Source of the DNA: Betaproteobacteria bacterium
GTDB lineage: Bacteria; Pseudomonadota; Gammaproteobacteria; Burkholderiales; Casimicrobiaceae
Length of the DNA: 64,000 nt
Reading direction: 5' to 3'
Assembly (NCBI GenBank): GCA_016861105.1
Contig: BOKS01000001.1
Location: 62,001 to 126,000, forward strand
The notes under the pieces were generated by a model. It did no database searches. It saw only the letters and a program-made list of their open reading frames with translations, and was not told the origin of the DNA. Shown one piece after another: positions 1 through 64,000 of the stretch (position 1 is the first letter of the stretch; the number at the start of each line of letters is the position of its first letter). A program made the position numbers and the translations under genes.

Positions 1-704
1 TCCTCCGCGAGGCGCACGAGCCGCGTCGCCGGGAGCTTCGCGCGATCCGGCGGCAGCGTGCCGTCGGCGGCGGTGACGGCGCGCGCGAAGGCGTCGAGCA
101 GCGCGCGCTCGAGCGACGCGCGGGCCTGCGACGTGGCGAACGCGTCCGGATCGCGCTCCGCCGCGGCGAGTGCCCCGAAGAGCAGTTCGACGACGGTCGC
201 GGCGGCCGGCGGCGGCGCGAGGACCGGACGGAACACCGTGCCGATCGTCGTCGACTCGCCTCCGCGCAGCGCGCCGAGCGCGTTGCCGAGGTCGACCGGC
301 GCGAACGAGACGCTCGCCCAGCGCGTCGGTCCCTTGCTCGATGCGAAGTACGTGGCGCCGGGGCCGAACATCGCGAACACGTTGCCGCTCACCACGTGCC
401 CGTTCATCCGGTAGCCGCTTGGCGCCGAGAGCGCGACGCCGAATCCGGCGATGTCGCGCGCGATGGTGCCGTACGTGAGCGAGGCCGCCGGCTCGTCGAC
501 GAACTGGACGAACCCGCGCTCGAGGGCGACGGGGAGCAGCGCCCACGGGCCGTCGGCACGGGCGCTCGGGGTGACGCGGAGCTGCGTGCCCTGGATGGCA
601 CGCGCGAGCTCCTCGGCTTCGGGGTAGGGCCGCCAGGCCGGTGCACGCGCTTCGCGCTGTGGCGCGGCGCTTGCTGCAACGTGAGTCGTCGACAGGCTGA
701 GCAT
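1..704 (-). CDS. AraC-family transcriptional regulator, C-terminus cut by window edge
   Basis: An open frame runs leftward from an ATG at 704 to the window edge (234 codons). The translated part has no signal peptide and looks like the N-terminal ligand or cofactor region of an AraC-type regulator of the EutR-like kind. It contains a sentence typical of these proteins (YRMNGHVVSGNVFAMFGPG) and ends in RLVRLAEE, where the linker into the AraC helix-turn-helix normally begins. The DNA-binding domain itself would lie outside the window, so the family call is an inference from the sensor part. No strong ribosome binding site is visible; a GATACG stretch lies 9 nt upstream of the ATG. It is divergent from the methyltransferase at 966. 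Confidence 0.6.
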   Translation of the reverse strand, partial: MLSLSTTHVAASAAPQREARAPAWRPYPEAEELARAIQGTQLRVTPSARADGPWALLPVALERGFVQFVDEPAASLTYGTIARDIAGFGVALSAPSGYRMNGHVVSGNVFAMFGPGATYFASSKGPTRWASVSFAPVDLGNALGALRGGESTTIGTVFRPVLAPPPAAATVVELLFGALAAAERDPDAFATSQARASLERALLDAFARAVTAADGTLPPDRAKLPATRLVRLAE

Positions 705-919
705 GGGACTTTCCGTATCGGGCGGATTCGGAGGCTGCGCAGGCCCATGCTGCGCGGAAACGGCAGTTCGTACGATGACCTGCGTCAAGGACCCCTCCTG
801 CCCGCGGGGCTACGCGGGGGTGCCGCCGGCATGCGGTCTCGCGCCTCGGCCGGTCGCCCGGGATGCGTGCGCGCGCACGTGCCGGGGGTGCGGTGCACGC
901 GCCCTCACCCGTCGCCGGG

Positions 920-925
920 TAGACT
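920..925 (+). promoter_or_regulatory. Putative -10 box of a leaderless promoter
   Basis: TAGACT lies 8 nt upstream of the ATG at 934, which would put the transcription start at or just before that ATG. No convincing -35 hexamer is visible. The same geometry recurs at 6410-6415 and 22646-22651. Confidence 0.3.
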
Positions 926-933
926 GCGGCGCC

Positions 934-969
934 ATGGGACCGACCGGCCTGCCGCGGCGCCGCGCGTGA
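934..969 (+). other. Possible 11-codon upstream ORF coupled to the methyltransferase
   Basis: ATG at 934 opens a mini-ORF (MGPTGLPRRRA) whose TGA stop (967-969) overlaps the GTG start (966-968) of the downstream methyltransferase in a GTGA junction. It is out of frame with the methyltransferase, so it cannot be its N-terminus. It may serve translational coupling or be a chance ORF; a similar arrangement precedes the aldehyde dehydrogenase at 22682. Confidence 0.3.
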
Positions 970-1706
970 GCGACGAGCGCGACCCCTTCGCGCGGCGCTG
1001 GCGCGTGCGCTTCGAGTCGTTCGCCGCCGCACGCGACGACGACGCCGGGATCGCCGGCTGGTCGACGAGCGGGCTCGCGACGCGCTTCCGGTTCTTCCGG
1101 CGCCTGTGCGACCCGCCGGCGCCCGGCTCGCGCTGGCTGGACGTGGGGTGCGGCGCGGGCACGTACAGCGCGTGGCTCGCGGAGGCGGGCGCCGAAGTGA
1201 CCGGGCTCGACTACTCCCTCGTCACGCTGCGCAAGGCCCGCACGCGGCTGCCGGCGTCGATCAGGCTGTGTGCGGGCGACGCCACGCGGCTGCCGTTCGC
1301 CGACGGCACGTTCGACGGCGCGCTGTGCTTCGGCGTGCTGCAGGCGGTGTCGGCCTCCGATGGCGTCGTGCGCGAGATCGCGCGCGTGCTGAAGCCCGGC
1401 GCGACGCTGTGGATCGACGCGCTGAACGGCACCGCGCTGCACGCGCGCACGCGCGAGTGGCGGCGGCGCCTCGCCGGCAAGCCGCCGCACCTGCGCTACG
1501 AGTCCGCGCGGCGGCTCGCGCGCGAGCTTCGCGCCGCGGGCCTGCGCGACGTGCGCCGTCACTGGCTGCCGATCGCGCCGTCGCGCCTGCAGGCGCTGCA
1601 GCCGTGGCTCGAGACGGCCGCCGCGCGCGCGGCGTTCGCGACGGTGCTCGGCGCGGGCGCGCTCGCCGCGCACTCGGTGCTGATGCGCGCGACCAAGCGC
1701 GCCTGA
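966..1706 (+). CDS. Class I SAM-dependent methyltransferase
   Basis: The 246-residue protein has a Rossmann-type methyltransferase fold. Motif I is WLDVGCGAGTYSAWLAEAG, followed by an acidic turn (VTGLDYS), a post-I motif (CAGDATRLPFADGTFDGALC) and a motif IV-like segment. This fits the Methyltransf_11/25 group that methylates small molecules or quinone-type substrates; the substrate cannot be read from the sequence. GTG 966 is chosen because the nearby ATG (934) is in another frame and because GTG sits in a GTGA overlap with the mini-ORF upstream. No operon partner lies within 500 bp on the same strand. Confidence 0.8.
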   Translation: MSDERDPFARRWRVRFESFAAARDDDAGIAGWSTSGLATRFRFFRRLCDPPAPGSRWLDVGCGAGTYSAWLAEAGAEVTGLDYSLVTLRKARTRLPASIRLCAGDATRLPFADGTFDGALCFGVLQAVSASDGVVREIARVLKPGATLWIDALNGTALHARTREWRRRLAGKPPHLRYESARRLARELRAAGLRDVRRHWLPIAPSRLQALQPWLETAAARAAFATVLGAGALAAHSVLMRATKRA

Positions 1707-2235
1707 GCGGCGCGCGCGCGACCCGGCGCCGCCGCGGCAGAGCACCGTCGCAGGCAGCGGTCGGTCTGACGGCGCTCGATGGCGCTCCACAGCGCGCCAC
1801 GGCGCGTTCGTCGAGGAACGCCGCGCGGTCGAGGGGGTCGCTGCTCGAAGCCAGCAGGCTGGCGATGTCCTCCGCGCGATGGTCCTCACGCTGCCCACCG
1901 TCGGCATCCGGTCCGCCTGCGCGCTTCGCGAGGCGACCGAGCGCGCCTGCGGAGTCGGCGCGGCATGCTGCTTCGTGGCGGCGCTCGCCGCGATCCTGCG
2001 AAGCCTGTCGCTCATGAGGTCACGAGCCCCGCACCGGGCCGCCACGCCGCATCGGCGGGCGTTCGTGCTCGTCATCGGACACGCGTGGCACGACCCCGTC
2101 GGCCCAACCCGCCGGACGTGCGGATGCCGCACCCGTCGGCAGAGCGCGCGCCCGCATGGCGCGAGGGCCGCTTCGCGACTATCATGACCCGCGTCGCCGC
2201 GGCGACTTCGCCGTGGCCGTCCCGTGGAGGCCACC
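1707..2235. other. Intergenic region, no gene recognised
   Basis: 529 bp separate the methyltransferase from the surface protein at 2236. The open frames here have arginine-rich, shadow-like compositions and no recognisable domain. A GACTAT stretch near 2176 could be a -10 box for the downstream gene, but no matching -35 was found. Confidence 0.5.
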
Positions 2236-3585
2236 ATGCGGCGCATCCGCTTCGCGTCGATCCGATCGATCGCTGCAGGAGCGGCACTCGCCGCGTCGGC
2301 AACGGTTGTCGAGGCGCAGATCTGCACCCCGTTCACCGACGTCGCCGCCGGGGATGGATTCTGCGGCAGCATCCAGTGGATGTACAACCGGGGCATCACG
2401 CTCGGCTGCGCCGAGAATCAGTACTGTCCCGCGCAGTTCGTGCGCCGCGACCAGATGGCGGCGTTCATGTTCCGGCTGGGCAACGTCGTGCACCAGCAGG
2501 GCGGCAACGCATTCGGCGCGACCGCCGTGCTGGGCACGACCGACGCGCACGCCATCGACGTCCGCGTCGCCAACGAGCGCGTGATGCGCTTCGAGCCGCA
2601 CGCGATCAGTCCCAACGTGATCGGCGGAAGCCAGCACAACAGCGTCGAAGCGGGGGTGCGCGGCGCAACGATTGCCGGTGGCGGCGTCGCGGCGAATGTC
2701 CCCGATCCCTTCACCCTGCCAGAGGCGCCCAATCGGGTCACGGACGACTACGGGACGATCGGGGGCGGGTTCGCGAACGTGGCCGGCAACGATGCGGGCT
2801 CCCTCCGACCGTGGGCGACAGTCGGTGGAGGGGCGCGCAACGTGGCCAGCGGAAGGTCGAGCACCATCGGAGGCGGCTACAACAACCGGGCGGACGGCGA
2901 GACAAGCACGGTCGCCGGAGGGTTCCTGAACACGGCCGTGGGCAGTTACAGCAGTAGTCCGGGCGGAGCCCGGAATGACGCGTTGGGCGACTTCAGCTTC
3001 GCCGCAGGCTACCGCGCAAAGGCCGTTTCCGACGGTTGCTTCGTCTGGGCCGATAGCGTCGAGTCCAACTTCGTCTGCGGGACGCCGAACGCCTTCATCG
3101 TCCGCGCCACCGGCGGTGTCGTCATCCGCAGCGCCGTCGCGCCGGAAGCCGGCGTCATCCTCGGTGCCGGCAGCAGCACGTGGGCGATGGGCAGCGACCG
3201 CGACGCCAAGGACAACGTCGCGCCCGTCGACCCACGCGGCGTGCTCGATCGCCTGGTCGACGTTCCGATCGCCACCTGGAACTACAGTGCGCAGCCGCCG
3301 CAGGTCCGCCACATGGGCCCGATGGCGCAGGACCTGCACGCCGCGTTCGGACTGGGCGAGTCCGATCGTCACATCACGAGCATCGACGCCGACGGCATCG
3401 CGCTCGCCGCGATCCAGGGACTGAACTCGAAACTCGAGCAGCGCGATGCTGCACTGCGCGCCGCGCAGCGAGCCGCGGATCGGGAGATCGCGGCGCTGAA
3501 GCGCGAGATTGCCGCCTTGCATCGCGCCGTGGAGGTGCTGACGGCACGGACGACGGCCGAGGGCCGGGTCGCGCACACGCGTTGA
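2236..3585 (+). CDS. Secreted SLH-like / YadA-like head / peptidase S74 protein
   Basis: The 449-residue product starts with a Sec signal peptide (about residues 1-28, ending VEAQ). Residues about 30-85 form an S-layer-homology-like module with four cysteines (FTDV, GITLGC, YCPAQFVRRDQMAAF). A glycine-rich region of GGG-N-ASG repeats follows, resembling the stacked head of trimeric autotransporters (about 130-265). A peptidase S74 chaperone domain begins at the SDRDAK motif (Ser320, Lys325) and includes HMGPMAQDLHAAFGL; a coiled coil ends the protein (about 400-440). In S74 proteins the Ser-Lys dyad cuts the chain just before the Ser after trimer folding. GGAGG 5 nt before ATG 2236 supports this start over GTG 2224. 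Close paralogues lie at 61872 and 63293. No beta-barrel anchor is visible, so surface attachment is unclear. Confidence 0.8.
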   Translation: MRRIRFASIRSIAAGAALAASATVVEAQICTPFTDVAAGDGFCGSIQWMYNRGITLGCAENQYCPAQFVRRDQMAAFMFRLGNVVHQQGGNAFGATAVLGTTDAHAIDVRVANERVMRFEPHAISPNVIGGSQHNSVEAGVRGATIAGGGVAANVPDPFTLPEAPNRVTDDYGTIGGGFANVAGNDAGSLRPWATVGGGARNVASGRSSTIGGGYNNRADGETSTVAGGFLNTAVGSYSSSPGGARNDALGDFSFAAGYRAKAVSDGCFVWADSVESNFVCGTPNAFIVRATGGVVIRSAVAPEAGVILGAGSSTWAMGSDRDAKDNVAPVDPRGVLDRLVDVPIATWNYSAQPPQVRHMGPMAQDLHAAFGLGESDRHITSIDADGIALAAIQGLNSKLEQRDAALRAAQRAADREIAALKREIAALHRAVEVLTARTTAEGRVAHTR

Positions 3586-3788
3586 TCCGACGGGCGCGCG
3601 GCAGCGCGAGGCTCGTGTCGCCGAGTTCTCGGCCAGTGCGCCTGGTCGGTCCACGGAGTTCGCAACCCCACCGCCGTTCAGGCGTGTCGCGCGCACGCTG
3701 CGGCCGGGTTCCGCTACGCTTGCGGGCGCGCGCGTCGCCCCACGACGGCGCGGCGTCGTCGACGCGCCCCTTTCAAGGAGAAACGAGC

Positions 3789-4499
3789 ATGCGCAGCGGT
3801 ACAACGTCCGGCCTTCCCGTGCGCAAGGCCGTGGCGGCAGCGATCGTGGCGGGCGGCCTCGTCGCGACCATCGCGTCGGCCAGCCACCTGTTCGCCGACG
3901 TCCCGACCTCGGCGATCTACCACGACGCCGTCGACTGGATCGCCGACCGGCTGGTGACGACGGGCTGCGCGACCGGGCTCTACTGTCCGGACGACGCCGT
4001 CACGCGCGCGCAGATGGCGCTATTCATGCAGCGGCTCGGCAACGCGCTCACGCCCACGGTGCTCACCGGCTCGGCCAACGTCCTCACCGGCGCCTTCCAA
4101 CCGCTGAGCGGCGAAGCCGTGTATTGCCAGACCGGCTCCTACACGCCGGCGTTCACGCGTCGCGTCGTCGTGCACAGCGCGTTCGGCTTCCACACCACCG
4201 CGGGGTTCAGCTTCGAGGTCGAGCCCGTGTCGAGCATCGACGGCGTCAACTGGAACGCGCTCTCCGGCCAGCCGGGGCGGGGTGGCAAGGCGTCTGCGAT
4301 GCAGGCCCACAGCGCGGGCGCGACCGACGTCGGCACGCGACTGCTGGCGGCCGGTGTCACTTACCGGTTCGGCACGCGCGTGCGCATCGTCGATGGCGCG
4401 GGGATCCTCGGCAGCGGCGGCTGCGAGGTGATGGCGACGATGTTCAACAGCGACACTCCGTTGATTCCGCTGCCGACGGACGCGAACGACGGCCTGTGA
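3789..4499 (+). CDS. Secreted protein with SLH-like module
   Basis: The 236-residue protein has an N-terminal signal peptide or anchor (about residues 11-33), then an SLH-like module (FADVPTSAIYHDAVDWIADR, TTGCATGLYCPDDAVTRAQM, FMQRLGN) sharing two of the four cysteines of the neighbour at 2236. The remaining 140 residues are a beta-rich region I do not recognise. A clear AAGGAG lies 8 nt before ATG 3789. The gene follows the S74 protein by 203 bp on the same strand, and both SLH-like modules are clearly related, so both products probably sit in the same cell-surface layer or matrix. The binding partner is unknown. Confidence 0.7.
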   Translation: MRSGTTSGLPVRKAVAAAIVAGGLVATIASASHLFADVPTSAIYHDAVDWIADRLVTTGCATGLYCPDDAVTRAQMALFMQRLGNALTPTVLTGSANVLTGAFQPLSGEAVYCQTGSYTPAFTRRVVVHSAFGFHTTAGFSFEVEPVSSIDGVNWNALSGQPGRGGKASAMQAHSAGATDVGTRLLAAGVTYRFGTRVRIVDGAGILGSGGCEVMATMFNSDTPLIPLPTDANDGL

Positions 4500-4526
4500 T
4501 CGCATCCAGTCGGGCGCCGGAAGCAA

Positions 4527-4552
4527 CGAAGGCGGGGGCCTCCCCGCCTTCG
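4527..4552. terminator. Bidirectional hairpin terminator
   Basis: A perfect 11-bp stem (CGAAGGCGGGG / CCCCGCCTTCG) with a GCCT loop lies between the convergent SLH-like gene and efp. There is no clear T-tract on either side, but position and stem strength fit a shared terminator. Confidence 0.7.
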
Positions 4553-4578
4553 CGGCGCGAGCGGCGCGCGTCCCCGCG

Positions 4579-5133
4579 CTACACGCGGCGCTTGTACTCG
4601 CCGGTGCGCGTGTCGATCTCGATGCGGTCGCCGGTGTTGACGAACAGGGGCACCGGCACCTCGAGGCCCGACGGGATCTTCGCGGGCTTCATCACCTTGC
4701 CCGACGTGTCGCCCTTGACCGCAGGCTCGGTGTAGGCGACCTCGCGCACCACCGTGGTCGGCAGCTCGACGCTGATCGCGCGGCCATCGTAGAACGTGAG
4801 CTCGCACTGCAGCCCCTCCTCGACGTAGGGGATGGCGTCGCCCATCGAGTCCTTCTCCACCTCGTACTGGTTGAAGTCGGCGTCCATGAACACGTACATG
4901 GGGTCGCCGAAGTACGAGTACGTGACCTCCTTCTTCTCGAGCTGGATCGTCTCGAACTTCTCGTCGGCGCGATACACGGTCTCGGTGCCGCTGCCCGAGA
5001 GCAGGTTCTTGAGCTTCATCTTCACGACCGACGCGTTGCGTCCGGACTTCGTGAACTCGGCCTTCTGCACGACCATCGGGTCCTTGCCGACCATGATGAC
5101 GTTGCCGGCGCGCAGTTCCTGGGCGATTTTCAT
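4579..5133 (-). CDS. efp: Elongation factor P, arginine-32 type
   Basis: The 184-residue protein is full-length EF-P: KOW-like domain I, then two OB domains, ending in the conserved [19 protein letters not shown] signature. It rescues ribosomes stalled at polyproline. The loop tip that reaches the peptidyl-transferase centre reads TKSGRNAS, with Arg32 at the modified position (Lys34 in E. coli). Arg32 EF-P is rhamnosylated by EarP, encoded directly upstream on the same strand with 90 bp between them. The start has AGGAACC upstream. Nothing is odd about length or motifs. Confidence 0.97.
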
Positions 5134-5223
5134 GACGGTTCCTGGCGTGGGCGGGGCACCGCGGCGCGGGCCCTCGCTGCCGCTGCCGGCACGCGCGACC
5201 CCGGGTCCCCGGGAAACCGTCCA

Positions 5224-6378
5224 TTATAGCCGTCCGCGAACAAAATCAACAAGCTGCGTGGCGAGATCGGGGACTGCGGCAAGGCGCGCGACCCAGTCGC
5301 GCGCGTGCGATGCGATCGCGGGAAGGCTCGCCTCCAGCGCCGGCCAGACGGCCGCCGCGGACGCGCCGTCGCCGTCGCCGAAGGCGCTGGTGAACGCCGC
5401 GAGCGCCTGCGCGGCGCCGGCGTGCAGGCCGTCGCAGTAGCGCGCGAGGAACGCGTCGCGCTTGGCGCGGTACGCGCCGCCGGACTGCGGATAGGCGTGC
5501 CACGCGAACGGTCGCGCGGCCCATTGCGCGCGCACGAACGAGTCCTCGCCGCGCACGACCGAGAAGTCGCAGGACCACAGCCGCCGGTCGAACGCGGCCG
5601 GCGCGACGAACGGCACGACGTCGAGCACGAGGCTCCCGCGGCGGTGCGACGTGCCCGCTGCGGCGGCGGTGCCGAGGAAGCCGTCGACGGCGTCGGCCGC
5701 CACCCCGTGCGGGACCAGGCAGGCGAGCGGCCGCGCACCCCCCGCCCACGCGTGCAGCAGCGGGCCGAGCGCGTCCGTCGGATAGCAGAACAGCGACACG
5801 CGCAGCGCGTGCGCCGGTGGCGGCGGCAGGCCGAGCGCGGTCCACGGCGCGTCGCGCGCGTGCGCCGCGGCGACGAACGCGTCGCGCTCGGCGAGGAGAC
5901 CGCGCTCGCGCAGCAGGCCGCCGGTGCCCGGCGTGAACCCCGGGCAGAAGAACCAGCGCGCAAGGCGCCGTCGCGGCGGCGGCGAAGGGCGTCCGTGCAC
6001 GCCCTCGACCCAGGCCTCCGCCGACAGGTACTCGAGCACGATCCACCGCGGTGGCGCGGGCGCCGCTTCGAACGCGTCGAGCCACGCGTCGGGAAGTCCG
6101 CCGCCGAACGCGTCGACGACGACCTGCGGCATCGGATCGGGTACCCGGACCCGCGCGCCGAGCGCGCGCACGCGCACGCCGTCGACGACCGCGTCGTCGC
6201 AGCGGGGGTCGTAGCCATGGAGGAAGCGCCCCAGCACGTCCGGCCGGTCGATCCACAGCGTCGCCTCGACGTCGTGCTCGTGGCGGAGCTGGCGCGCGAG
6301 CCGCCACGCGACGCCGGCGTCGCCGAAGTTGTCGACGACGTGCACGACGATCGCGGCGCGGAGCGGGGCGTCCTTCAT
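5224..6378 (-). CDS. earP: EF-P arginine rhamnosyltransferase EarP
   Basis: The 384-residue protein matches EarP (DUF2331), which transfers rhamnose from dTDP-beta-L-rhamnose to Arg32 of EF-P. The N-terminal motif VVDNFGDAGVAWRLARQL holds the two catalytic-site aspartates (Asp16, Asp20), and the C-terminal lobe has VVRGEDSFVRAQWA with the conserved Glu278 in the nucleotide-sugar site. Both lobes are complete, giving a GT-B glycosyltransferase of normal length. It is the first gene of earP-efp and divergent from the DsbA-like gene at 6423. An ATTATG/CATAAT element 9 nt before the start may be its promoter. Confidence 0.95.
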   Translation of the reverse strand: MKDAPLRAAIVVHVVDNFGDAGVAWRLARQLRHEHDVEATLWIDRPDVLGRFLHGYDPRCDDAVVDGVRVRALGARVRVPDPMPQVVVDAFGGGLPDAWLDAFEAAPAPPRWIVLEYLSAEAWVEGVHGRPSPPPRRRLARWFFCPGFTPGTGGLLRERGLLAERDAFVAAAHARDAPWTALGLPPPPAHALRVSLFCYPTDALGPLLHAWAGGARPLACLVPHGVAADAVDGFLGTAAAAGTSHRRGSLVLDVVPFVAPAAFDRRLWSCDFSVVRGEDSFVRAQWAARPFAWHAYPQSGGAYRAKRDAFLARYCDGLHAGAAQALAAFTSAFGDGDGASAAAVWPALEASLPAIASHARDWVARLAAVPDLATQLVDFVRGRL

Positions 6379-58531: not shown

Positions 58532-59125
58532 ATGCCCGAGCGACAACCTGACGTGGACGTCGACGACGCTGCGGACGCCGCCACCGTCGCCGGGCTGATC
58601 ACGGCGGCCGAAGGCGGCGACCGGGTCGCTGCATCGGCGCTGTTCGACAGCCTCTACCGGGAGTTGCACCGGGTCGCGAAGCGCCAGCTGCGCAGCGGCG
58701 GGTCGAGTCCGCCGCTGTCCCCGACGACGCTGCTGCACGAGTGCTACCTCAACATGACGAGGAGCAGCGCGTCGTTTCCGGATCGCGCGCGCTTCGTCGC
58801 CTACGCGGCCCGCGCGATGCGGGGCCTCGTCGTCGACGCGCTGCGCGAGCGACGCGCGATCAAGCGCGGCGGCGCTTTCTTCCTGACCTCGCTCGACACG
58901 GACATCGGGGACTCGGTACCCGAGACGGAGGCGATTCGCCTCGGCGATGCGCTCGATCAGCTCGCCGCCGTGGACGCCGCCCTCGCGGAGCTCGTCGAGC
59001 TCAAGTTCTACTGCGGCTTCTCGTTCGTCGAGATCGCGGGGATGCGCGGCGTGTCCGAGCGCACCGTGCAGCGCGACTGGCGGAAGGCCCGCCTTCTGCT
59101 CCATCGCGAGCTCGCTCCGGACTGA
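58532..59125 (+). CDS. ECF sigma factor (Sig-70_X6 type)
   Basis: The 197-residue protein belongs to the group of ECF-like sigma factors paired with kinases: SLYRELHRVAKRQLRS, SPTTLLHECYLNM, YAARAMRGLVVDALRERRAI and the region 4 helix LKFYCGFSFVEIAGMRGVSE with TVQRDWRKARLLL. It is directly upstream of the Ser/Thr kinase at 59166 (40 bp gap, same strand). Its target promoters are unknown. Confidence 0.88.
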   Translation: MPERQPDVDVDDAADAATVAGLITAAEGGDRVAASALFDSLYRELHRVAKRQLRSGGSSPPLSPTTLLHECYLNMTRSSASFPDRARFVAYAARAMRGLVVDALRERRAIKRGGAFFLTSLDTDIGDSVPETEAIRLGDALDQLAAVDAALAELVELKFYCGFSFVEIAGMRGVSERTVQRDWRKARLLLHRELAPD

Positions 59126-59165
59126 CGGCGTCGGGTTCGGGCGCGCGATTCCGATACGCGCATCG

Positions 59166-61847
59166 ATGACGAGCATCCTGACGTCGCGCTGGCAGGTGGC
59201 GAGCCCGTTGCTCGACGAGCTGCTCGAGCTCGACGTTCCGCAGCGCGACGCGCGGCTCGCCCGTCTGCGCGGCGAGGATCCGGCGCTTGCGGACGCGCTC
59301 GCCGCGCTCCTCGCCGTCGAGCCTGCGATCGAGCGGTCGGGCTTCCTCGAAGGATGGGCGCTGGACGCGCAGGCGGATCCGGCCGAGCCGCTCGCCGGCA
59401 AGCGCATCGGACCCTACGCCCTCGAGCGTCCGCTAGGGCAGGGCGGGATGGGCAGCGTGTGGCTCGCGCGACGCGTCGACGGCCGCTACGAGGGGCAGGT
59501 CGCGATCAAGCTCCTGAACCTCGCCTTGATCGCCCGCGGCGGCGCCGAGCGGTTCCGCCGCGAGGGCCAGGTGCTCGCGAAGCTCGCGCATCCGGGCATC
59601 GCGCGCCTGCTCGACGCGGGCGTCGCGGAGGGCGGCCAGCCGTTCCTCGTGCTCGAGTACGTCGACGGCGAGCCGATCGACCGCTGGTGCGAGCGACGCG
59701 CCCTGGCGCCCGAGGCGCGCGTCCGGCTCTTCCTCGACGTGCTGGCGGCGGTCGACCACGCGCACGGCAGCCTCGTCCTGCATCGCGATCTCAAGCCGGG
59801 CAACATCCTGGTGACGCGCGACGGCGGGGTCAAGCTGCTCGACTTCGGCATCGCGAAGCTCCTCGACGCGAGCGAGCGCAGCGCCGGCGCGACGGAGCTG
59901 ACCCGCGCGGCGGGCCGGGCCTTCACGCCCGAGTACGCGGCGCCGGAGCAGGTTCGCGGCGAGGACCTCACGACCGCCACCGACGTCTATGCGCTGGGCG
60001 TGCTGCTCTACCGGCTGCTGAGCGGCGAGCATCCGACGACGAAGCCCTCCAGCAACCCGGTCGACGCGCTGCGGGCCGTCGTCGACGCCGAGCCGGCGCC
60101 CGTGTCGCAGGCGGCATCGCGCACGGGAGCCGCGTCGCGGACCGCGCTCTCCGGCGGCGACCTGGACAACATCGTCGCGAAGGCGCTCAGGAAGGCGCCG
60201 CGCGAGCGCTACGCCAATGCCGCCGCCTTCGCCGACGACCTCGGCCGCTACCTGCGGCGCGAGCCGGTGTCGGCGCGGCCGGACTCGCGCGGCTACCGGC
60301 TGCGCAAGTTCGTCGAGCGGCACCGGTGGGGGGTCGGCGCGGCCTCGGCCACGCTGCTTGCGTTGCTCGCCGGCGTGGTCGCCACGACCTGGCAGGCGAT
60401 CGAGGCGCGGCGCGAGCGCGACCAGGCGCTCTTCCAGGCCGAGCGGGCGCTCGCCAGGGGAAGCCTCGTCGAGCTGATGCTCGGCGCCATGGGGTCGGCC
60501 GAGCGGGCGCTGACGCAAAGCGAGGTGCTCGACCGCAGCGTGGCGATCGTCGAGAAGCGGTTCATGCGCGACCCGCGCATCGCGGTCGACCTGCTGCTGC
60601 CGATCGCCGGCCAGTACATGTCGCTCGGCAACACGACCAGGGAGTACGAGGTGATGCAGCGCGCGGCGAGCGTCGCGAGGGCCAGCGGCGACGCGCGGCT
60701 GATCGCGTCGGTCGCCTGCAACACCGTCGAGACCGAACTCTACCGCGGGCGGCGCGACCTCGCCCGCGAGCAGCTCGAGCTCGGGCGCCGCGCGCTGGCG
60801 GAGCTTCATCGGCCGCCGCTCGGCACGGTGCTGTCGTGCTCGTTCGCCGAGGCGGAGATCGCGCGCCGCGACGAGGACTACGAGCGGTCGGTCGCGCTCG
60901 CCCGCGCAAGCCTCGCCCTCGCCGAGCGCGAGCGGTACACGCAGGGCAACCTGTACCCCAAGCTCCTCGGCTTCCTGAGCGTCGTGCAGCAGGGCGCGGG
61001 CGACGTGGCCGCAAGCCACGCGACGCTGAAGCGCCTGCAGGCGTTCCAGGAGAAGCTCGGCCGAAGCGGAACCGTCGACGAGCTGGGCCAGCTTCGTGCC
61101 GAGGCCGTGCTGCTCGCGGCGATGGGCGAGCACGCGGCCGCCCGGCGGATGATCGACGAAATTGTCGTGCAGTGGCCCGCGCGCAGCGGCGGCGACACCG
61201 CGCCGCCGCCGATCACGCTCACGCAAGCCACGCTCGCGCACCGCCTGGGCGATCTCGACACGGCGCATCGCGTCGTCGAGGAGACGATCGCGCGCTGGCA
61301 CGCGCTCGGGGGCACCCAGGACGTCGTCAGCGCGCAGTTCGCGCTGGCCCGCGTCCTCGTGCACCAAGGCCGCCTCGACGAGGCCGAGCGCGTGCTCGCC
61401 CCCATCGAGGCCGCGGGGGCGCGGGTGCGCCGGTCCTCGCAGTTCACGGTCCCCACGGCCAGGGCGGAGCTGCTGCTCGCGCGCGGAGCCCTGCGCGAGG
61501 CCGCGCAGACCATCGAGCGCGAGGTCGCGCTCCTCGGCGGGAAGGACGCGCCGCACCTCGCCAGCGCGCTGCGCGTGGCCGCCTCCGTGCACCTCGCGGC
61601 CGGCGACGCCCTGCTCGCGCGGGAGCGAGCCGCCAGCGCCGCTGCGGTCGCCGAGCGGGTCGCCCGCGATCCGGCGCGAAGCGGCGACGTCGGCGAAGCG
61701 CTGCTGCTCGCGGCGCGCGCGCTGCAGGCGCTCGGCGAGCACGCTGCCGCGGTCGACGGCGCGCGCCGGGCACTGCCGCGCCTCGCGGCCGGGCTGGGCG
61801 AAGGACACGCGCTGACGCGCGAGGCACTGGCGCTTTCGCAGCGCTGA
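59166..61847 (+). CDS. Membrane Ser/Thr protein kinase with helical-repeat C-terminus
   Basis: The 893-residue protein has a complete kinase domain: GQGGMGSVWLARR, VAIKLL (Lys115), LHRDLKPGNILVTRDGG (Asp208), LLDFGIAKLL (Asp226) and FTPEYAAPEQVRGED. A transmembrane segment lies at about 387-409 (WGVGAASATLLALLAGVVAT), and a roughly 480-residue helical-repeat (TPR-like) extracellular or periplasmic domain follows. The layout (sigma factor then kinase) suggests kinase control of the sigma factor; the repeat domain may sense a ligand. Convergent with the S74 gene at 61872. Confidence 0.85.
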   Translation: MTSILTSRWQVASPLLDELLELDVPQRDARLARLRGEDPALADALAALLAVEPAIERSGFLEGWALDAQADPAEPLAGKRIGPYALERPLGQGGMGSVWLARRVDGRYEGQVAIKLLNLALIARGGAERFRREGQVLAKLAHPGIARLLDAGVAEGGQPFLVLEYVDGEPIDRWCERRALAPEARVRLFLDVLAAVDHAHGSLVLHRDLKPGNILVTRDGGVKLLDFGIAKLLDASERSAGATELTRAAGRAFTPEYAAPEQVRGEDLTTATDVYALGVLLYRLLSGEHPTTKPSSNPVDALRAVVDAEPAPVSQAASRTGAASRTALSGGDLDNIVAKALRKAPRERYANAAAFADDLGRYLRREPVSARPDSRGYRLRKFVERHRWGVGAASATLLALLAGVVATTWQAIEARRERDQALFQAERALARGSLVELMLGAMGSAERALTQSEVLDRSVAIVEKRFMRDPRIAVDLLLPIAGQYMSLGNTTREYEVMQRAASVARASGDARLIASVACNTVETELYRGRRDLAREQLELGRRALAELHRPPLGTVLSCSFAEAEIARRDEDYERSVALARASLALAERERYTQGNLYPKLLGFLSVVQQGAGDVAASHATLKRLQAFQEKLGRSGTVDELGQLRAEAVLLAAMGEHAAARRMIDEIVVQWPARSGGDTAPPPITLTQATLAHRLGDLDTAHRVVEETIARWHALGGTQDVVSAQFALARVLVHQGRLDEAERVLAPIEAAGARVRRSSQFTVPTARAELLLARGALREAAQTIEREVALLGGKDAPHLASALRVAASVHLAAGDALLARERAASAAAVAERVARDPARSGDVGEALLLAARALQALGEHAAAVDGARRALPRLAAGLGEGHALTREALALSQR

Positions 61848-61871: not shown

Positions 61872-63224
61872 TCACCGCGCATCCGGGCTGACGTCGCGCG
61901 TCCCGAGCAGGTGCGAGACCACGCGGCGAAGCTCGGCGATCTCGCGCGCCTGGGCGGCGACCTTCGCGTGCAACCCCTGGAGGGCGGCGAGCGCGACGCC
62001 GTGCATGTTGTTGGTCGCGATGGTCTTCGCGTCGGTGCCGAGGCGGAACGCCGCGTGGAAGTCCTGGGCGGTGGGGCCGAGCTGGCGCGGGGCCGGGTCG
62101 GCCCCCTTCAGCGTGTACGAGTACATGGGCATCGCCGCGAGGCGCTCGAGGATCTCCTCGCCGTTCGCCGGCTCGAAGTTCTCCTTGCCGTCGCGGTCGC
62201 TGTTGCAGATCCAGCCGACCTGTCCGGGATCGAGCCTGCAGAGGTTCGTGCCCAGCCCGGCAGCGTTGATCGCGGTGGTGAAGTTGACGCCGCCGGTGGC
62301 GCGCACGCCGAACAGGTTGTCGTCGAGGAACTCGAAGACCTGCGATCTCGAGTCCGCCCAGATGAACGATCCGTCCCCGGTCGCGCGCGCGTTGTGGCCG
62401 GCGGCGAAGCTGAGTTGGCCGCTCGCAACGTTGTTGAGGCCGCCAGCAACCGTGCTGAGTTGGCCACTCGCGAGGTTGTTGCCGCCACCGACCACCGTGC
62501 TGAGCCCGTTGCTCGCCTCGTTGTCCGTGCCTCCGGCGACGGTGCTCCGGGCGCCACTGGCGACGTTGTTGCCGCCTCCGGCAACGGTGCTGCGGTCGCC
62601 ACTTGCGCGGTTGTTCGCTCCGCCTGCAACGACGCTGTAGCTGCTGCTCGCAGTATTGCCCAGCCCCCCGGAGACCGTCGCGCCCGGGACGTCGGCCACG
62701 GTCCCCGCGGCGTCGCCGGCCAGGTTGCCCTGTCCGCCCGCGACCGTCCCGAAATCGTCGGTGACCCGGTTGGGCAGGTTCGTGCTGCCCCCGCCGGAAA
62801 TCGTCGCCCCGAAGACGAAAGGAGCTACCGAATTGGCCGCCTTTCCTCCGATCACGTTCGGAGTGTTCGAGCTGGGCTCGTACCGCATCACCCGGCTTCC
62901 ACCGACCCGGATGTCGAGGGGCTGGAATTCGCTCGTACCCAGCACGCCGGGTCCACCGAACGCGTTGCCGCCCTGCTGGAACACCGTCTTGTCGGCCAGG
63001 CGATTGAGGAACGCCGCCATCTGGTCGCGCCGCACGAACTGTCCGGGGCAGTACTGCGTCGCGGTGCACCCCAGCGTCACGCCGCGGTTGAGCAGCCACT
63101 GGATGCCGGGGCAGAACGGATCGTCCGCCCCGACGTCGTCGAACGGCGTGCAGGTCTGGGCGCGCGCCGGGAGGGCGGCGGAGGCGACGGCGAGCGCGAG
63201 GACCATCAGCAGGTGACGGCGCAT
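61872..63224 (-). CDS. Secreted SLH-like / YadA-like head / peptidase S74 protein
   Basis: The 450-residue paralogue of the 2236 protein has a signal peptide (ending PARAQ), an SLH-like module with four cysteines (TPFDDV, GVTLGC, QYCPGQFVRRDQM), and a head built of 15-residue units of the form STVAGGGNNVASGAR, at least five in a row. The S74 chaperone begins at SDRDGK (Ser342, Lys347) and contains LGPTAQDFHAAFRLG; a coiled-coil end follows (VAAQAREIAELRRVVSHLL). The Ser-x4-Lys dyad is intact. GAGGAG precedes ATG 63224. Its end is convergent with the kinase gene, 24 bp away. Confidence 0.82.
   Translation of the reverse strand: MRRHLLMVLALAVASAALPARAQTCTPFDDVGADDPFCPGIQWLLNRGVTLGCTATQYCPGQFVRRDQMAAFLNRLADKTVFQQGGNAFGGPGVLGTSEFQPLDIRVGGSRVMRYEPSSNTPNVIGGKAANSVAPFVFGATISGGGSTNLPNRVTDDFGTVAGGQGNLAGDAAGTVADVPGATVSGGLGNTASSSYSVVAGGANNRASGDRSTVAGGGNNVASGARSTVAGGTDNEASNGLSTVVGGGNNLASGQLSTVAGGLNNVASGQLSFAAGHNARATGDGSFIWADSRSQVFEFLDDNLFGVRATGGVNFTTAINAAGLGTNLCRLDPGQVGWICNSDRDGKENFEPANGEEILERLAAMPMYSYTLKGADPAPRQLGPTAQDFHAAFRLGTDAKTIATNNMHGVALAALQGLHAKVAAQAREIAELRRVVSHLLGTRDVSPDAR
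62400..62655 (-). repeat. 45-bp tandem repeat encoding the protein head
   Basis: About five to six copies of a 45-bp unit, each beginning with a GTTGTTG-like block on the plus strand, encode consecutive 15-residue GG-N-ASG units within the S74 gene. The units vary, mostly at third codon positions, so the array is an old protein repeat and not a recent DNA duplication. Confidence 0.75.
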
Positions 63225-63292: not shown

Positions 63293-64000
63293 TCACCGTC
63301 GCGAACGTGCGAGCTCCGCCACCTGCCGCCGCAACGCCGCGAGCTCCCGCTGCTGGGCCTGCAGCGCCTGCTCGAGGGCGGTGTTGCGCGCCTCGAGCTT
63401 CGCGTTGAGCCCCTGGATCGCTGCGAGGGCCACGCCGTCCAGGTTGAGCGTCGCGACCATGCGCCGGTCCCCACCGAGGCCGAACGCCGCGTGGAAGTCC
63501 TGTGCCGTCGGTCCGAGCATGCGCGGCGCGTCGTCGATGCCGCGGACGGTCCAGCTGTAGAGCGGCATCGACGCGAGCCGGTCGAGAACGTCGCGGCTGT
63601 CCACGGGCCGGTAGTTCTCCTTGCTCTCGCGGTCGCTGAAGCACTGCCAGCCGACCACGCCCGGTGCGAGATCGCAGTACTGCAGCGGAGCACCCGAGCC
63701 GGCCCCGATCGCCGCGACGAACCTGATGCCGCCGGTGGCCCGGACGTGGAAGCTGTTCGCCGTCGACGTGCCGAAGTCGAAGCTCCGGTGGTCGGACCAC
63801 ACGAACGCGCCGTCCGCCGTCGCCTTGGCGCGCTGGCCGGCCGCGAAGCTGAAGACCCCGCTCGCGAGGTTGTCCTGGCCGCCTGCCACGGTGCTGGCCG
63901 TGCCCGTGGCCCTGTTGATGTTGCCGCCTGCGATGCTGCTGAACGCTCCGCTCGCGAAACCGGCGTTGCCCCCGGCGATGGTGCTTCGGTCGCCCGTCGC
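63293..64000 (-). CDS. Second head/S74 protein, N-terminus cut by window edge
   Basis: The frame is open to the window edge, so the N-terminal part is missing. The visible 235 residues hold head repeats (RSTIAGGNAGFASGAFS, TVAGGQDNLASGVFS), a VRATGG link, the S74 domain (FSDRESKENYRPVD with the Ser-x4-Lys dyad, LGPTAQDFHAAFGLGGDRRM) and a coiled coil (LEARNTALEQALQAQQRELA). It is a neighbour and close paralogue of the 61872 gene, 68 bp upstream of it on the same strand. Confidence 0.8.
   Translation of the reverse strand, partial: ATGDRSTIAGGNAGFASGAFSSIAGGNINRATGTASTVAGGQDNLASGVFSFAAGQRAKATADGAFVWSDHRSFDFGTSTANSFHVRATGGIRFVAAIGAGSGAPLQYCDLAPGVVGWQCFSDRESKENYRPVDSRDVLDRLASMPLYSWTVRGIDDAPRMLGPTAQDFHAAFGLGGDRRMVATLNLDGVALAAIQGLNAKLEARNTALEQALQAQQRELAALRRQVAELARSRR

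Follow-up and report, generated by a model that had tools for sequence, protein, structure and literature searches.

A 449-residue protein of a betaproteobacterium carries, from one end to the other, a signal peptide, a single S-layer homology (SLH)-type module with four cysteines, a head of the UspA1/YadA type and a peptidase S74 domain. The reading preferred here, in which we place a little more than even confidence, is that of a trimeric fibre which cleaves its own chains before Ser320 and is anchored to a pyruvylated polysaccharide of the surface, each chain supplying one SLH module. The module order, a near-invariant catalytic dyad, the predicted S74 and UspA1-like folds, and the linkage of SLH genes to a polysaccharide island in two genomes are computed results.

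The features are collected in the table below. "The window" denotes the whole 64,000-nucleotide stretch of DNA that was analysed.

Features of the window, with residues of the encoded proteins where these apply
Feature	Position	Strand	Basis or remark
Gene of the SLH-head-S74 protein	2236..3585	+	449 aa and stop
Signal peptide, residues 1-27	2236..2316	+	Basic start, hydrophobic core, VEA before Gln28
Single four-cysteine SLH-type module, residues 30-81	2323..2478	+	Pfam, 13-row profile, Gly57/Arg71
Conserved cap/neck (QGGNAFGA ... NVIGG ... GATIAGGG), residues ~87-168	2494..2739	+	Paralogue alignment, model
UspA1/YadA-type head, 15-residue repeats, residues 166-271	2731..3048	+	3PR7, 3NTN, CbpF and BoaA matches
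S74 intramolecular chaperone/autoprotease and C-terminal helix, residues 320-449	3193..3582	+	Pfam, MyRF ICA 7DC3, model
Ser320-Asp-Arg-Asp-Ala-Lys325, predicted catalytic dyad, predicted cut before Ser320	3193..3210	+	39-row alignment
Neighbour with signal-peptide-like start and one SLH module (Cys pair 3-4 only)	3789..4499	+	Pfam, cysteine reading
Complete paralogue, 450 aa, SLH-head-S74, SDRDGK	61872..63224	-	Window sequence
Second paralogue, 3' part (head and S74, SDRESK)	63293..64000	-	Start at 64583; SLH part beyond window, in other frame

Modules of the 449-residue protein

A preliminary description of the sequence had placed the gene at 2236-3585 and read its product as a secreted, self-maturing trimeric fibre with a signal peptide, an SLH-like module with four cysteines, YadA-like head repeats and an S74 domain bearing Ser320-x4-Lys325. 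The gene and its coordinates are correct on re-reading, an in-frame GTG at 2224 being an alternative start. The combination of modules is confirmed as real and the outline reading as correct: the idea of such a fibre, the module order and the dyad find support in family profiles, in a structure model and in catalytic residues that hardly vary. The signal peptide, read by eye, would end at Ala27, and the other seven paralogues with a complete in-frame 5' end start alike. No NCBIfam model reaches its cut-off for this protein, the complete window paralogue or the neighbour at 3789-4499. An Rfam scan of window positions 1-6000 gave no matches, nor did promoter and terminator scans.

The SLH-like module, with its cysteines at positions 30, 43, 58 and 64, is indicated by two profiles. 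The Pfam SLH model matches residues 32-75 at E 0.004 with 17.5 bits, under its cut-off of 20.8. A second profile, made from 13 of these modules and run against PDB sequences, matches SbsB (3.6e-7) and Sap (1.9e-4). The Pfam model finds nothing at E 0.01 in the complete window paralogue; its cut-off is reached by two of the ten S74 paralogues, and also by the neighbour at 3789-4499. Modelled alone, from three sequences, the module has two helices and a pLDDT of 55.0, too low to serve as the query of a fold search.

The head repeats are real, and they are of the UspA1 type. A phmmer comparison with the Moraxella UspA1 head 3PR7 gives 8.4e-18, and identity at a lag of 15 over residues 161-275 is 27; shuffled sequences average 9.1, and none of 2000 was as high. 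Pfam YadA_head has no match in the protein and is matched in four of 39 aligned relatives. No C-terminal membrane anchor of the YadA type was found with Pfam, the chain ending in the S74 domain and a long helix. Membership among the trimeric autotransporters was not adopted, there being no barrel.

The S74 domain is matched by Pfam Peptidase_S74 over residues 320-371 (E 2.2e-9, 37.9 bits against a cut-off of 22), and Ser320, Asp321, Arg322 and Lys325 stand where they had been placed. An alignment of 39 rows was made from two window proteins and 37 of 80 kept loci on genome contigs. All 39 rows match the Pfam model; Asp321 and Lys325 never vary, and at least 90% of the rows keep Ser320. SDRxxK is found in all ten S74 genes of the genome itself. 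Among 126 distinct S74 sites at loci outside it, gathered with a profile made from the window's own paralogues, 122 have S-x4-K and 114 have SDx3K. The four sites that lack S-x4-K comprise two with Cys for Ser, one with the Lys lost and one whose match stops short of the site. The Cys-for-Ser pair (L064 and L070, in records named Phycisphaerae and Planctomycetota) reads CDRxxK, with Cys in place of the catalytic Ser. A decayed S74 domain was ruled out because the dyad is kept in paralogues and relatives.

Structure prediction, which had been suggested as a check, returns the S74 fold. An AlphaFold2 monomer model of residues 28-449, built on the 39-row alignment, has a mean pLDDT of 83.4 and a long C-terminal helix at residues 382-448; its SLH region is poor, with block means of 40-64. 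In a Foldseek search the UspA1 head structures 3PR7 and 3NTN take ranks 1-3, with CbpF and BoaA also matching the head. Chains of the MyRF ICA structure 7DC3 match at probability 1.00, with E values of 0.06-0.19 for this multi-domain model, and the endosialidase endoNF (3GW6) matches weakly.

In MyRF, as described in PMC8326128, S587 and K592 are required for cutting, which takes place only in the trimer. The fibre Bd3182 of Bdellovibrio is described in PMC10769870 as cleaving itself at Ser, an ability lost in the S782A mutant. By comparison, we infer that the 449-residue protein forms a trimer and cleaves itself before Ser320.

SLH genes and a CsaB-like polysaccharide island

The SLH module is used widely in this genome (G000) and rarely elsewhere. 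PF00395 is found in two of 64 family genomes, G000 and G245, the latter of the same genus. The 13-row profile matches 55 places in G000 and 26 in G245; among the 52 genomes of the same search, three others have four, two and one matches. Two S74-bearing genomes of the same genus (G241 and G247) have no match to the profile. In a sample of 300 genomes of the order, with at most 22 candidates scored per genome, the profile matched only the genome under study.

By a hand count, 11 of the 55 places in G000 lie in four frames with two or three modules, 42 occur one per frame, and two share a 996-codon frame that spans two genes. The S74 genes hold 11 of the 55, and several of the other SLH genes encode short proteins with a signal-peptide-like start. 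With so many places in both genomes, the module therefore serves many proteins there.

A candidate source of the ligand lies on the same contigs as SLH gene clusters. The pyruvyl transferase family PF04230 is found in seven of 64 family genomes, with the best matches in G245 and G000 and weaker or partial ones in the other five; the other 20 genomes of the genus have none. In both G000 and G245 the gene shares a contig with an SLH gene cluster. It matches TIGR03609 (CsaB) over nearly its full length, at 161 bits in G245 and 149 in G000, under the equivalog cut-off of 213 (E 1.9e-43). TIGR03609 matches of any strength occur in four of 64 family genomes and in 48 of the 300 genomes of the order; having a CsaB-like gene is thus no guide by itself to the presence of SLH modules. 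Two order genomes (G285 and G369) even outscore G000 on this model, though in the order sample SLH was found only in G000.

Near the CsaB-like gene lie genes for glycosyl transferases and for Wzt with a Wzt_C domain, along with Wzm, which was scanned in G245, and WecB, which was scanned in G000. A frame-by-frame comparison of contig C18 of G000 (L258, L259, L260) with contig C36 of G245 (L261-L263) found the two islands largely collinear. Both hold a putative mtnA-like gene, SLH genes, a large SLH protein, WecB, a glycosyl transferase, the CsaB-like protein, Wzt and Wzm. Identities are 88% for WecB, 77% for the glycosyl transferase, 52% for the CsaB-like protein, 65% for Wzt and 75% for Wzm; the arrangement of Wzt and Wzm differs between the two. 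Since both genomes belong to one genus, their agreement does not represent two independent events. The first 54 kb of C18 and the window have a tetranucleotide correlation of r 0.998.

WecB makes UDP-ManNAc. According to PMC6801904 and PMC6081394, the SLH ligand of Gram-positive bacteria is formed when CsaB adds pyruvate to ManNAc. With WecB, a CsaB-like protein and Wzm/Wzt present, the gene content is what one would expect of an island making a pyruvylated ManNAc-type polysaccharide, which is the classical ligand of SLH modules. A search of the open-licence PMC literature found, among the matches listed, no SLH display with a pyruvyl transferase in Proteobacteria.

The island bears on where the fibre would sit. 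It could instead be a periplasmic trimer, with its SLH modules on peptidoglycan as in OmpM and SlpA and its head turned toward periplasmic partners or the outer membrane. Such an arrangement is consistent with a signal peptide in a protein in which Pfam finds no outer-membrane anchor family, and with the diderm proteins OmpM and SlpA, whose SLH modules are described as binding periplasmic peptidoglycan (PMC10628300, PMC9388160). It is nevertheless unlikely: the SLH genes are paired with a Wzm/Wzt exporter whose Wzt has a Wzt_C domain, which suggests a polymer on the surface, a UspA1-like head is typical of surface adhesins, and OmpM is reported absent from Gracilicutes (PMC10628300). Linkage to the polysaccharide island therefore makes an outer-surface location likelier than it would be from the gene alone.

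Whether the module could still bind such a ligand was judged from its residues. SpaA is described as contacting its ligand through SLH-Trp13, Gly29 and Arg43 (PMC6081394). When these are mapped by the G-x3-G spacing and an alignment with Sap, they correspond to Gly41, Gly57 and Arg71. The equivalents of Gly29 and Arg43 are kept in 13 of 13 modules. The Trp13 equivalent is never Trp, being Gly, Pro, Ala or Ser, and the adjoining Phe42 is kept in 13 of 13. The ligand site may thus be altered in these modules.

Of the four cysteines, paralogue C2_216k is without the third and fourth, which are missing together, and the neighbour at 3789-4499 is without the first and second. This joint loss in two cases suggests pairs 1-2 and 3-4.

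Two such putative cysteine pairs are unusual for SLH. Together with the loss of the Trp13 position and the weak SLH models, they would fit a module that no longer binds polysaccharide and has become a disulphide-stabilised cap for oligomerisation or export, the CsaB-like island serving other proteins. This is improbable, for the binding-site Gly and Arg are invariant in 13 of 13 modules, and a module that fronts many other proteins of the genome fits an anchor better than a fibre-specific cap.

Paralogues, relatives and exchange of front ends

The genome holds ten S74 genes on five contigs, and in eight of them the SLH module lies in the S74 reading frame. The preliminary description counted two paralogues at the other end of the window. 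One is indeed complete; the other is cut by the window end and has its SLH part in a different frame. A third copy lies just outside, making the right-edge array one of three. The cut paralogue, at 63293-64000 and beyond, has its SLH part and head in different frames and is a pseudogene or an assembly error. Another S74 gene is cut by a contig end inside its SLH module. That contig (C28, L014) is 3972 bases long and each of its ends has an S74 start region, which may reflect a tandem array or a collapsed repeat.

In the neighbour at 3789-4499, SLH is the only Pfam match, the C-terminal part having none; several look-alikes of this protein occur elsewhere in the genome. An ECF sigma factor gene and a large Ser/Thr kinase-TPR gene at 58532-61847 are convergent with the S74 array.

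Exported fibres with a head and an S74 domain are already known from many phyla; what is uncommon here is a front end made of one SLH module. The suggestion that an exported chromosomal S74 fibre is in itself special does not survive. A scan of genome contigs matched 116 relatives, of which 80 were kept, in records named Chloroflexota, Planctomycetota, Hydrogenedentota, Myxococcota and others, and Bdellovibrio is described as having 13 S74 fibres, one of them shown to cleave itself (PMC10769870). At the kept loci 68 S74 frames reach 300 codons or more; by a simple test 56 of them have a signal-peptide-like hydrophobic start, and seven of the remaining 12 are cut at a contig start. Fifteen plasmid records were also matched, including by name one Allomeiothermus, one Herpetosiphon and two haloarchaea. 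The two haloarchaeal plasmids (NZ_CP087722.1 and NZ_CP101160.1) have head-S74 matches over residues 174-399 and 252-399.

The S74 domain occurs in 14 of 185 class genomes, nine of 150 order genomes and 22 of 64 family genomes. The mapping of the SLH-S74 combination across genomes, proposed earlier, was carried out with the SLH profile over 201 loci, taken with some kilobases each way, 153 of which have a recognised S74 frame. Among these loci, the combination in one frame was found outside the genome under study only in the two S74 genes of G245. In the open-licence PMC literature, no paper was found with both "peptidase S74" and "S-layer homology".

Other relatives have other front ends. Six S74 fibres of a related genus (L119, L120, L124, L134, L136 and L138) have a dockerin-like front, and the one scanned matched Dockerin_1 at E 0.008, under cut-off. 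Further S74 fronts in the family are of an LLTIDQNRATV type, which has no Pfam match, and there are other kinds besides.

These front ends were compared on a tree of the S74 region, which is short. Its rows were chosen by hand from family proteins whose front end is legible, leaving out S74 matches weaker than 1e-20 and proteins whose N-terminus lies off the contig. The 12 SLH-bearing proteins require seven label changes, at least five of them forced by well-supported branches. A single SLH clade is rejected, with p-AU 1.5e-9 for 34 rows and 4.4e-8 for 32 rows, the smaller set omitting L150 and the second L165 row, both of them truncated by a contig end. The label is somewhat clustered, 19 of 500 shuffles being as low. 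Because the SLH-bearing proteins do not form one clade, front ends have been exchanged. One SLH-S74 fusion followed by duplication was ruled out by the AU tests. Recombination within genes can also give such a tree, and is itself an exchange of modules.

The S74 domain is common in phage fibres and PHROGs tail-fibre and virion-structural families match (best 2e-9), yet a captured phage tail fibre, or a prophage or tailocin part, is hardly credible: the protein has a signal peptide, 11 of 12 matched phage records cover the S74 part only, at 34-37% identity, the twelfth is a protein with three SLH modules, six of seven viral-contig matches are limited to the S74 region or a part near it, the neighbours scanned, those in the window, are a methyltransferase, EF-P and EarP, and there are ten copies on five contigs. 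A prophage origin was rejected on the evidence of the phage records, viral contigs and window neighbours. The 13-row SLH profile found no relatives among viral contigs. The twelfth record (MT835650.1, L176), filed as phage, has its three SLH-like repeats at the end of the protein and is probably bacterial DNA.

A proposed fibre and its known counterparts

In the preferred reading, that of a self-cut fibre held on polysaccharide, the process would start with export by the signal peptide. The C-terminal coiled coil and S74 domain would then nucleate a homotrimer, and the beta-roll head would fold against the S74 chaperone. Next, the Ser320-Lys325 dyad would cut before Ser320 and residues 320-449 would be shed. 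The base of the mature trimer would retain three SLH modules, one per chain, which could jointly form a three-SLH unit, as in the trimers of OmpM and SlpA, and bind an anionic polysaccharide. The likeliest ligand would be a pyruvylated ManNAc-type polymer from the linked WecB/CsaB-like/Wzm-Wzt island, and the polymer-bound fibre would sit on the cell surface with its adhesin-like head. Several results weigh against this reading: the low Pfam SLH scores and poor models of the SLH region, the replaced Trp13 equivalent, CsaB-like scores under the cut-off, the higher-scoring CsaB-like genes of G285 and G369, the PF04230 matches of five further family genomes, and a Pfam scan that finds no outer-membrane anchor. 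We infer the SLH ligand, the outer-surface location, the adhesive role and the route across the outer membrane. A trivalent SLH anchor reached by trimerisation would be, by analogy with OmpM and SlpA, what ties the S74 and SLH parts into a single mechanism.

A broader model concerns the genome as a whole. It proposes a betaproteobacterial CsaB-type display, in which a Wzm/Wzt-exported pyruvylated ManNAc-type polymer holds dozens of proteins with a single four-cysteine SLH module. The S74 fibres would have been re-fitted with SLH several times, trimerisation making a multivalent three-SLH anchor. This model is tentative, and we give it somewhat less than an even chance.

The presence of SLH and S74 in one protein suggests that a fibre could be built and anchored in one step. 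If so, three SLH copies would be supplied by an autoproteolytic trimerisation domain, which would couple correct assembly to anchoring. Likewise, a betaproteobacterium would be using SLH display on a pyruvylated polymer, which the literature consulted describes in Gram-positive bacteria and deep-branching diderms. Since front ends differ within one family, they are natural replicates for comparing anchors. The fibre type being known, it is the anchor combination and its genomic link to the CsaB-like island that are worth testing.

Several known systems share parts of this design. Autotransporters end in a membrane barrel. The heads of Moraxella UspA1/YadA-type autotransporters (3PR7, 3NTN) are alike in sequence and in the model, whereas here the chain finishes in an S74 chaperone and the predicted anchor lies at the opposite end. 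The S74/ICA domains of phage endosialidase (3GW6) and MYRF (7DC3) share the Ser-x4-Lys dyad and the predicted fold with its C-terminal helix, and differ in cargo, host and compartment.

OmpM of Veillonella and SlpA of Deinococcus also have one N-terminal SLH module per chain, and those proteins form trimers (PMC10628300, PMC9388160). Their chains finish in an outer-membrane barrel, which the SLH part links to peptidoglycan.

Gram-positive SLH/CsaB display, as in Sap and SpaA, likewise combines an SLH-type module with a genome-linked CsaB-like transferase, and here WecB could supply ManNAc. The Gram-positive proteins usually carry three tandem SLH modules per chain on a peptidoglycan-linked polymer; the betaproteobacterium has one per chain, with two putative cysteine pairs, and a Wzm/Wzt exporter.

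The S74 group of the Bdellovibrio MAT (mosaic adhesive trimer) fibres, for instance Bd3182, is similar in its signal peptide, in its trimeric state, which is predicted for the protein described here, and in its terminal S74 domain with SDxxxK, as described in PMC10769870. Also shared are a set of paralogues per genome, mosaic exchange of modules and self-cleavage before Ser, which is shown in the MATs and predicted here. MATs begin with a conserved beta-rich domain of about 130 residues and vary at their tips (PMC10769870), whereas here one SLH front end precedes a UspA1-type head and it is the front end that varies among relatives. Membership in the MAT superfamily was not adopted, as SLH and the head cap replace the N-terminal domain of about 130 residues. 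The 449-residue protein would work like a MAT even though it is not filed as one.
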